From positions 124,001-188,000 of the forward strand of contig QCFZ01000002.1 in assembly GCA_003278255.1 (NCBI GenBank): a stretch of DNA of 64,000 nt, in the 5' to 3' direction. The notes below the pieces were generated by a model, which saw nothing but the letters and a program-made list of their open reading frames with translations, ran no database searches and was not told where the DNA came from. Shown in pieces: positions 15,797 to 44,301 of the stretch (position 1 is its first letter; each line of letters opens with the position of its first letter). Source of the stretch: Prochlorococcus sp. AG-363-O15 (GTDB taxonomy: Bacteria > Cyanobacteriota > Cyanobacteriia > PCC-6307 > Cyanobiaceae). A program made the translations under genes and the position numbers.

Positions 15797-15811
15797 ATAA
15801 AACTATTTAGA
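15788..15811. terminator. Hairpin with both convergent stop codons in its arms
   Basis: TCTAATTAG (15788-15796) and CTATTTAGA (15803-15811) pair in 8 of 9 positions around an ATAAAA loop. The left arm holds the esterase stop TAG, the right arm the TAA stop (on the minus strand) of the DUF3155 gene. Probable compact bidirectional terminator; the stem is AT-rich and weak. Confidence 0.4.
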
Positions 15812-16175
15812 CAAAAGCATATTCATACTCTTCAATTTCCTCCCAATCATCTGAAGTAAGCTCAAGACCTTCAAACATTGTATCTTCTCCTACAGAATCA
15901 ACGATTGTACGAAGTGAAGGGAATAAAAAGTGGTTCTCTTCTGCATATTGAGCACTAAATAGTCCCTTCTCACCCCAAAAGAAACGATCGGTTGTGTGTT
16001 CGTTTCGACGAACATTAAGGATGGCTGGTGAACGTAAACCTGCTTCTGCGATATATCGCCTAGCAGCTGTTACAGGCTTGTGTTCTCCTGTTTCGAGATG
16101 AAATGTTGGAACATGGGCCAAGACTCTTTGCCCAGCTAGGCGTCTGCGGCTGATCCGCTTGCGCTTCTTAGACAT
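15807..16175 (-). CDS. DUF3155 family protein
   Basis: 122 residues: a very basic N terminus (MSKKRKRISRRRLAGQRVL), a middle segment with HKPVTAARRYIAEAG, and a very acidic C terminus (LTSDDWEEIEEYEYAFV). This charge layout and the text fit the cyanobacterial DUF3155 family. The basic end suggests nucleic-acid or ribosome contact, but the function is unknown. The ribosome binding site (AAGGAGT, about 9 bases before the ATG) sits in a small hairpin, ACTCC-AAAA-GGAGT, in a leader with further hairpins. Confidence 0.85.
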   Translation of the reverse strand: MSKKRKRISRRRLAGQRVLAHVPTFHLETGEHKPVTAARRYIAEAGLRSPAILNVRRNEHTTDRFFWGEKGLFSAQYAEENHFLFPSLRTIVDSVGEDTMFEGLELTSDDWEEIEEYEYAFV

Positions 16176-16543
16176 GAATAAAACTCCTTTTGGAGTGAGT
16201 TGGGAAAACGGAAGTGTCTTAAGGCACTTCTTATGAAATCTCGAGCTATTGCACGAGTATGTAGACGCACCAACTGCGGCAAGCCGTGAGACATAACTGC
16301 CGCAGTAAAACCACGACTTAATATCAAGCTCAAAATCAACTCAGCCGGTTTTTAGGCAGGGGACTCATCTACCTCTGCTGTAGCCTTGGTTGCCTTTATA
16401 TGCAACCCTGCTTAGTCGACTTACAGAGCACTTCACGGAGAAGAATTGCGCTGGTCGATAAAAAACATCTTAAGACTTTTTTTTGAATTTTCAAGCTTCA
16501 AGCTCTCTTGATTTGCTCTTTCTTTTCTTGCAAATCTTTCACT
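16176..16543. other. Gene-free stretch with several inverted repeats
   Basis: 368 bases without a convincing gene. Inverted repeats seen: ACTCC/GGAGT at about 16185-16198 around the ribosome binding site of the DUF3155 gene; GAAGTG/CACTTC at 16211-16216 and 16225-16230, with CTTAAG between; a perfect 9-base-pair pair ACTGCGGCA/TGCCGCAGT at 16273-16281 and 16298-16306; GGTTGC/GCAACC at 16388-16393 and 16402-16407. A minus-strand frame at 16136-16339 and a tiny plus-strand frame at 16233-16289 are not convincing. It may hold a small RNA or a structured 5' leader; I could not match tmRNA, RNase P RNA or 6S RNA. Confidence 0.4.
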
Positions 16544-17648
16544 ATGCAGTTGTCGGAACGATTCCTGAATCTTTTGCAGCAACAGTTGGGAAGCTTTGAG
16601 GCCGAACCTGCAATTGCCAATCTTGTTGTTTATGTGGCTCAGTCAGGAGATGGTCAGGCTCCAAGTTTAGAGGCAATTGGTCAGTGGCCTAAAGCAGTTT
16701 CATCTTTGCCGCCTGTTGAGTCAGACCCTGCTTTGCGCGCACCCTCTCCAGATAGGCGTTGGTATCCCTTGCAGGAAGGCACGATCTTGCTTGGAGTTTT
16801 GCGGGCTGAGCGATTTGAGTCCAACCAAGCTTGGCCAGAAAGTCTTGATCACAGATTGCAGTTGACAGCAGCTGCATTAGCTCAGTTTCTTGGCATGGAA
16901 CTTGAACGTTCGCGGCTTTTTGATGAGTTAACACAGCAGCGCGAACAAATTAGTTTGATGGTGCATCAGTTGAGGAATCCTCTTGCTGCATTGAGGACTT
17001 ATGCAAAGTTGTTAATGCGCAAACTTGGACCAGAGAGTACTCATCAGCCTCTTTTGGATGGACTATTAACAGAACAAGATCAATTAAACAAATATATTTC
17101 TGCCCTAGACCAATTGAGTCAGGTCAAATTACCTCCTCCTGATATCTCTACTTCTCCTCTTCTTTTGCCTCCAGTTAATCCAAAAGCATCTTGTTTAAGT
17201 ATTCGAGCATTGTTAGAGCCTTTGATTGATCGTGCTTCAGCAACTGCTAACTTTCAAGATCGTAAATGGTTTGGTCCTTTGGACTGGCCAACTTGGGTTG
17301 ATTTGCCAAGACCACTTGAAGTTGGAGCAGTTGCAGAAATTGTGGCTAATTTGCTTGAAAATGCGTTTAGATATAGTTCTCCAAAGAGTTCTATAGGACT
17401 TCATTTAAGTAAAGAGGGCCTTTGTGTTTGGGATGGAGGAAGCCCAATTCCAAAGGAAGAACGAGAGGAGATTTTTCAAAAGGGTATGAGAGGTACAAGT
17501 AGTCTTGAATTAGCAGGAAGTGGTCTTGGTTTGGCACTTGGACGTCAATTAGCTGAACAATTAGGAAGTCAACTGCAACTTATTATTCCTCCTAAGAATT
17601 TTGACCGAGTACTGCCTGATCAAGGTAATGCTTTTGTTCTGACTCCTC

Positions 17649-19616
<1,968 letters not shown>

Positions 19617-41452: not shown

Positions 41453-41780
41453 AGGCAAGGGCAACAACCAGGATTGCAATAAAAATAACTGCTTCTATGA
41501 ATGCCAATAAACCAAGTCGATGAAATGCTACTGCCCATGGATAAAGGAAAACTGTTTCTACGTCAAAGATGACAAACACAAGTGCAAACATGTAGTAGCG
41601 AATGTTGAATTGAATCCATGCACCACCTATTGGCTCCATTCCTGATTCGTATGTCAGCTCTCGCTCACCTGACCTACTTCGAGGCGAAATCAATTTGTTG
41701 GTAACTAAAGCGAGCGTAGGTACAGCTGTTGCTATTAGCAGAAACCCCAGAAAGGCGTCGTAACCTGGCAGGGCAAACAT
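41418..41780 (-). CDS. ndhC: NDH-1 subunit C (NuoA homolog)
   Basis: 120 residues from the ATG at 41780 ([21 protein letters not shown]), the known length; the longer frame adds 43 unlike residues that would run into the divergent rubA start. Three membrane spans are seen: the first after the N terminus, then [28 protein letters not shown] (with the conserved acidic FDVE) and [22 protein letters not shown]. First gene of ndhC-K-J, divergent from rubA. Confidence 0.95.
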
Positions 41781-41861
41781 ATTAAAAGGCAATTCATCAC
41801 TCAGTCTGGCATTCACTGACCAAAGTTCGTCGATAGAGTTGTATTGAATGGGAGAGCAGAG

Positions 41862-43678: not shown

Positions 43679-43825
43679 ATGTCTCAATCTTCTGCTCCAA
43701 TTCAAGCTGCTGAAGTACGCACCTATCCGATCTTTACCGTTCGGTGGCTTGCAGTACATGCTTTGGCTATTCCAACTGTGTTTTTCTTAGGCGCTATTGC
43801 AGCTATGCAGTTCATTCGCCGCTGA
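43679..43825 (+). CDS. psbF: Cytochrome b559 beta subunit
   Basis: 48 residues, [20 protein letters not shown] followed by [20 protein letters not shown] and AAMQFIRR. The haem-ligating histidine is in [10 protein letters not shown] near residue 27. Single-span photosystem II subunit. Starts 3 bases after the psbE stop; psbL follows 19 bases later. Confidence 0.98.
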
Positions 43826-43844
43826 TTGATCCTTATTACTAGTC

Positions 43845-43964
43845 ATGCAAGTCAATCCGAACCCAAACAAACTGCCTGTTGAATTAAACCGCACAAGCCT
43901 TTATTTGGGCTTATTGCTGGTTTTTGTCATGGGTGTTTTGTTTTCCAGCTATTTCTTTAACTGA
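43845..43964 (+). CDS. psbL: Photosystem II reaction centre protein L
   Basis: 39 residues, beginning [20 protein letters not shown] and ending [18 protein letters not shown], with the conserved [29 protein letters not shown] pattern of PsbL. Single membrane span; needed for stable plastoquinone binding and electron flow in photosystem II. Between psbF and psbJ in the standard order. Confidence 0.97.
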
Positions 43965-43976
43965 GCTTTCTAAACC

Positions 43977-44174
43977 ATGAGCACAAAACTAAAGGGACCT
44001 GACGGACGTATTCCGGATCGCCTTCCTGATGGCCGCCCAGCGGTTTCATGGGAACGACGTTGGACAGAGGGTTCTCTGCCCCTATGGCTAGTTGCTACAG
44101 CAGGTGGAATTGCTCTGATTTTTGTTCTTGGTATTTTCTTCTATGGCTCCTATACAGGAGTTGGCTCCGCCTGA
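43977..44174 (+). CDS. psbJ: Photosystem II reaction centre protein J
   Basis: 65 residues. The N-terminal half is hydrophilic ([21 protein letters not shown]); the second half has a membrane span, [32 protein letters not shown], with the diagnostic IPLWLVATVAGxxVIxxLGxFFYGxYxGxGSS-like sequence. Last gene of psbE-F-L-J, 12 bases after psbL, and followed by a long terminator hairpin. Confidence 0.97.
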
Positions 44175-44244
44175 AGTGTTTACAAAGACCTAAGACATTT
44201 TGCTTGATTCATTAGGCAAAATCAGAGTCAAGTTTCTTTTTTAT

Positions 44245-44301
44245 AAAAACACCTATAAAATCGAGCATTTTAATTTTCATGCTTGATTTTTAGGTGTTTT
44301 T
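44245..44301. terminator. Long bidirectional terminator hairpin between psbJ and mtnP
   Basis: AAAAACACCTA plus TAAAATCGAGCAT on the left pairs with ATGCTTGATTTTT plus AGGTGTTTTT on the right, with one bulge/mismatch and one wobble, around a T-rich loop. It carries A-runs and T-runs on both outer ends, so it works in both directions. The right arm encodes the last residues (KNT) and the stop of mtnP. Confidence 0.85.

Follow-up and report, generated by a model that had tools for sequence, protein, structure and literature searches.

A putative structured 5' leader upstream of DUF3155 in Prochlorococcus, Synechococcus and Cyanobium

Background

The 64,000-nucleotide stretch of Prochlorococcus sp. 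AG-363-O15 DNA analysed here, hereafter the window, contains a gene-free gap of 368 bases (16176-16543) between a DUF3155 gene on the minus strand and a histidine kinase gene on the plus strand, which raises the question of what this gap encodes. Prochlorococcus, a very abundant marine genus, encodes very few regulatory proteins (PMC2518516). An earlier note on this DNA proposed that the gap may hold either an independent small RNA or an RNA-level control of DUF3155. Comparison with related genomes suggests that the gap probably comprises the DUF3155 promoter and the template of a long, structured 5' leader of its mRNA, which would regulate this gene in cis in the Prochlorococcus/Synechococcus/Cyanobium family. 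The proposed RNA-level control of DUF3155 is thus strengthened by the orientation of the predicted promoter, the covarying helices and a conserved hairpin over the Shine-Dalgarno (SD) sequence. The deep conservation of this leader further implies that the dose of DUF3155 is controlled, and any partner that binds the leader probably bears on the role of the DUF3155 protein.

Methods

Relatives of the locus were gathered through DNA and DUF3155 searches of 99 genomes and a search of named genomes (80 loci). The 134 upstream regions collected were reduced to 108 after 26 near-duplicates were dropped; L101, situated at a contig end, L170, with no ATG at the inferred start, and L077, with no upstream sequence, were left out. 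Covariance model R1 was built on 66 of the 84 non-redundant cores, the more divergent cores being omitted, while model R2 was built on 16 close relatives. Pair counts for the core hairpins P1 and P2 were derived from an alignment of 83 cores fitted to the model. In the swap test, each helix arm was scored with its own partner and with the partners from 12 GC-matched leaders sharing less than 70% identity, for 96 leaders which, being related, do not represent independent samples. An earlier swap test without GC matching was rerun with the GC-matched partners, and three negative controls in the GC-matched test gave p values of 0.27, 0.34 and 0.48.

Results and discussion

The gap and its flanking genes

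The gap described in the earlier note is real. It is bordered by the DUF3155 gene (15807-16175, minus strand; PF11352, E 4.9e-48), which would be the controlled gene, and by the divergent histidine kinase gene (HisKA, HATPase_c; 16544-17680, plus strand), which starts with an ATG at 16544, the longest open reading frame extending from a TTG at 16508. The closest named DUF3155 protein, with 98% identity, is that of Prochlorococcus sp. AG-363-O16, and DUF3155 was found in 93 of 99 genomes sampled from the whole class. The divergent DUF3155/kinase arrangement is kept in all 55 family loci with upstream sequence, tblastn placing a match to the kinase of the window next to DUF3155 in each. A DUF3155 protein 85% identical to that of the window is also encoded on a viral-collection contig (L170), which may reflect either a phage-borne gene or host contamination. 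Two further stretches of the window (43760-44289 and 41480-41843) were devoid of open reading frames of at least 100 codons in a crude gene call, and had no match in Rfam.

At least four inverted repeats had been claimed for the gap, and six pairs were found, two of which are overlapping palindromes. The perfect 9-bp pair (16273-16281 with 16298-16306) is present as reported, but its special status is lost, given that 49 of 500 dinucleotide shuffles contain such a pair. By eye, it is not kept among the relatives, and the conserved parts of the gap are mostly other than this repeat. On each strand, the predicted fold of the gap is better than that of all 100 shuffles, with z-scores of -3.4 on the plus and -2.7 on the minus strand, in agreement with the folding proposed as a check. 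Standard RNAs were likewise found to be unrecognisable, with tRNA, tmRNA and Rfam families all below threshold. No Rfam 15 family matched the gap when the window was searched at the gathering threshold, while a permissive search of the gap yielded a best E of 1.1, with all hits snoRNA-type or unrelated and at chance level, and a search of the loci of 12 relatives gave no match. Two other proposed checks were answered, with covariation present among the relatives and no known family matched. The leader is best considered a candidate cis-regulatory RNA, new in having no Rfam family, of a general kind that is already known.

A conserved, predicted promoter directed towards DUF3155

A promoter for DUF3155 is predicted on the minus strand, consisting of a -35 element, TTGAAA (16489-16494), and a 15-base block, AAAAAGTCTTAAGAT (16467-16481), with the -10 element TAAGAT. 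A TTG is located 15-19 bases before the -10 element in 87 of the 100 leaders with the 15-base block. On the minus strand the block, AAAAAGTMTTAAGAT, is exact in 65 of the 108 leaders, and occurs with one mismatch in 25 and with two or three mismatches in ten, being absent from the remaining eight. Exact copies were found once each in ten of twelve genomes searched, all ten at the DUF3155 locus by coordinates, and none were found in the other two (G060 and G023). Look-alikes of the block, with three mismatches and other spacings, occur in three of 31 outgroup DUF3155 loci. The conservation extends well beyond a -10 box and, together with the single copy per genome (10/12), suggests that the block may be bound by a specific regulator, one that the divergent kinase shares.

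The -10 element is located 173-369 bases from the ATG (median 294). Judging from its position, the RNA would start near 16459, at the A of AUCGACC, yielding a predicted 5' leader of 284 bases (16176-16459, minus strand), and CGACC occurs near the expected start in 50 of 96 leaders. The start-site tables published by Voigt in 2014 reportedly may include relevant start-site data.

A branched domain with a nearly invariant linker

The leader contains a hairpin, P1 (GGUUGCAU...GGCAACC; 16388-16407, minus strand), with both-side changes in seven of its eight pairs among the 83 cores and a GC-matched swap p of 4e-6 (96 leaders). Downstream of P1 is the nearly invariant linker AGGCUACAGCAGAGG (16372-16386, minus strand), found with at most four mismatches in 99 of the 108 leaders, the 3' part of which doubles as the 5' side of hairpin P2 (CAGAGG...CCCCUG; 16357-16377, minus strand). 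Both-side changes occur in five of the nine P2 pairs, with 63% of the cells paired, and P2 is the weakest of the supported helices, its swap p moving from 2e-4 without GC matching to 0.048 with it. There are 71 cells with double changes among the 83 cores versus 30 in shuffles, and slid registers score lower than the aligned P1 and P2 registers, while the count of doubly changed pairs (12) is not above that in shuffles, 55 of 500 of which reach 12.

With model R1 the core is recognised in 182 of the 201 family genomes (E<=0.1), including 118 of 130 nearly complete family genomes, and nothing below E 0.5 was detected in the 31 outgroup cyanobacterial DUF3155 loci (best E 0.51). Of the 64 loci searched with model R2, 35 matched, at least nine of these only in the P1/linker part. 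In the divergent, high-light-type Prochlorococcus leaders it is mainly the P2 part that is kept, and core scores are weak. The 14-base linker core is not unique when one mismatch is allowed, with 20 matches in eight genomes. Weak second R1 matches were observed in some genomes; those of G022 are located away from DUF3155 (C1:1255312-1255369, E 9.4e-5, and C1:1933726-1933771, E 4.8e-4), and may represent chance matches or further copies. At one locus of genus g8 (L063, genome G007) the DUF3155-kinase gap is reduced to about 100 bases and lacks the linker, and among ten genomes of this genus four have no core match and six have matches with E from 0.007 to 2.2e-6, indicating that the leader can be lost. 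The P1-plus-linker unit is duplicated in tandem with a 35-base period in a single genus (g29; genomes G028, G108 and G157), the duplicated loci L024 and L099 being of the Prochlorococcus sp. MIT 0701 type, as if this unit were a binding module. A small protein encoded in the gap was judged unlikely by inspection, because of the 35-base tandem period in this one genus, the variable loop lengths and the inconsistent AUG in the P2 loop, which is found in some leaders and missing from others.

In the 16 close relatives, RNAalifold predicts a long helix, Pc, which encloses P1, the linker and P2, and has its 5' arm at 16410-16429 and its 3' arm at 16328-16345 (minus strand). In addition to RNAalifold, this closing helix is supported by pair counts, with 87% of cells paired in the inner twelve pairs and 66% in the outer four in these relatives, and by the swap test, with p 3e-7 over 94 leaders without GC matching and p 0.0012 over 96 leaders with it; within the 16 closest relatives the swap was not significant (p 0.14). 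In more distant relatives the sequence of the closing helix is very different. A closing helix of at least eight pairs can be formed by 67 of 96 leaders, but shuffled flanks form one in 49% of cases. A helix between the 5' end and the bases preceding P1, which looked convincing by eye, failed both swap tests (p 0.17 and 0.77) and was rejected.

A possible signal for the branched domain

In the cis-acting leader proposed here, the branched domain (closing helix, P1, linker and P2) would bind a signal that alters the openness of the SD hairpin, which in turn would lower translation by hiding the ribosome site. A protein is the most probable signal of this kind. It may be the DUF3155 protein, in which case the gene would limit its own translation, and a small molecule is the main alternative. 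DUF3155 is a candidate because of its basic and conserved N-terminus, with eight basic residues among the first twelve. The predicted fold of DUF3155 has a pLDDT of 84, and neither a comparison of the model with the PDB (E<=0.001) nor a PDB search by sequence identified a relative. There is a reasonable, if less than even, prospect that the leader represents an undescribed class of regulatory RNA, in which a branched sensor domain with the AGGCUACAGCAGAGG linker would read a metabolite or DUF3155 and gate the translation of DUF3155, in Prochlorococcus, Synechococcus and Cyanobium only. As the linker is short and invariant, mutation and binding tests would be direct.

A riboswitch, in which a metabolite would bind the branched domain and gate DUF3155 translation, is the best of the rival explanations, and is nevertheless unlikely. 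The leader does include a conserved domain with an aptamer-like layout, in which a closing helix and two hairpins are combined with a nearly invariant joining sequence, and the tandem 35-base P1-plus-linker units of the one genus would also suit such a function. The domain is, however, associated with a single gene, with no second gene class behind it, and the downstream gene encodes neither an enzyme nor a transporter. Nor did a low-powered scan reveal an alternative pairing that could act as a switch: covariation linking the domain to the SD hairpin was not detected, the best z being -3.07 among 448 window pairs, with values of opposite sign up to +4.14, and P1 itself reaching a z of only -1.1.

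Structure up to the ribosome binding site

The downstream half of the predicted DUF3155 leader is also structured. Between P2 and P3, hairpin P2b (16299-16317, minus strand) was recognised by eye in relatives, its 3' arm overlapping one arm of the 9-bp repeat; hairpins of at least five pairs, with differing sequences, are visible at this site in 13 of the 16 close relatives. Among 24 relatives, hairpin P3 (CUCG...CGAG; 16240-16257, minus strand) has both-side changes in six of seven pairs, and hairpin P4 (16211-16230, minus strand), which is one of the inverted repeats of the gap, in all five, with 68% of its cells paired. The downstream half thus contains eleven pairs with both-side changes versus 5.9 in shuffles, with none of 500 shuffles reaching eleven.

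The hairpin noted over the ribosome binding site of DUF3155 (ACTCC-AAAA-GGAGT in the DNA; 16183-16196, minus strand) is borne out by the comparison. As ACUCC-AAAA-GGAGU and many other forms, such as CUCCC/GGGAG and ACCCC/GGGGU, a predicted stem of at least four pairs occurs over the SD in 94 of 108 leaders. Scores of at least 13 are reached in 50 of the 97 leaders with a recognised SD versus 20% when the 5' part is shuffled; of the 18 genes in the window that have an SD, one reaches this score. The GC-matched swap gave a p value of 5e-4 (96 leaders), and in the 24-relative set the pairs of this hairpin change on one side only. The predicted upstream promoter, the lack of a conserved terminator before DUF3155 and structure that extends up to the ribosome site are the features expected of a cis-regulatory 5' leader.

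The proposed independent small RNA, which would share the leader's promoter, terminate or be processed ahead of DUF3155 and act in trans, has a low probability. It could make use of the conserved promoter and of the nearly invariant linker, which could serve as a base-pairing seed, and a U-rich run follows P2b in two relatives (L010 and L121). Terminator-like sites after the linker were, however, found in only eight of 99 leaders compared to four of 99 when shuffled, the covarying hairpins continue up to the Shine-Dalgarno sequence, and the element is always read beside DUF3155, all aligned loci having been taken upstream of this gene, with no second strong copy seen. Less probable again is an RNA thermometer or simple SD hairpin, in which the last hairpin alone would matter and the remainder would be packaging; this accords with the ribosome site lying within a hairpin conserved in many forms, but not with the location of the most conserved part, approximately 200 bases upstream of the SD hairpin.

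The strand on which the DUF3155 leader would be encoded can further be judged from the G-U and A-C cells of the helices. In the closing helix, 47 G-U versus 13 A-C cells were observed on the minus strand, which indicates a minus-strand RNA, as an RNA of the opposite strand would show the reverse, and P1 displays a similar excess over 83 cores (45 G-U versus 23 A-C). Within the 16 close relatives, P1 goes against the minus strand (one G-U versus six A-C), and A-C cells are slightly more numerous than G-U cells in P2 (111/93), P3 (9/6), P4 (11/9) and the SD hairpin (7/6). A plus-strand RNA on the histidine kinase side, whether leader or small RNA, would be favoured by these four hairpins and the slightly better plus-strand z-score, but is highly improbable given the closing helix and P1 counts, the orientation of the promoter towards DUF3155 and the SD hairpin, which belongs to DUF3155.

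Comparison with known systems

In riboswitches that act on translation, a closed and branched domain, in which the joining bases are invariant, is followed by a downstream SD hairpin. The DUF3155 leader has this same layout, and it is by layout that the two are compared; the leader differs in that no switch pairing was found and only one gene is involved. Structured leaders of the S10, L11 and beta operons are listed for the picocyanobacteria (PMC1242208), and the DUF3155 leader resembles such autoregulatory ribosomal protein leaders in its long structured 5' leader, its small, basic and conserved protein and the translational control proposed. DUF3155 is, however, not a known ribosomal protein, and the likeness is one of general layout only.

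Searches of the literature for the linker letters and PF11352 returned only papers unrelated by title, DUF3155 is mentioned in passing in the available part of PMC3364912, and no description of the leader was found in the available parts of PMC2518516, PMC7368042 and PMC5069720. Cluster 217 of Axmann et al. (2005; PMC1242208), a 153-base RNA candidate of strain MED4 flanked by genes for a two-component sensor kinase and a conserved hypothetical protein, possibly corresponds to the same gap, the two being likened by the descriptions of their neighbours rather than by coordinates. It is marked '-' under testing, a mark left undefined in the available part of the table legend, and unlike the leader set described here it comprises one sequence, with no leader role given in the part of the paper available. 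The DUF3155 leader also resembles the Yfr small RNAs of Prochlorococcus, as a conserved, structured picocyanobacterial RNA with its own predicted promoter (PMC1242208, PMC2518516, PMC7368042). Unlike the Yfr RNAs, as far as these are described in the available parts of those sources, it has no conserved terminator before the gene and is tied to DUF3155.
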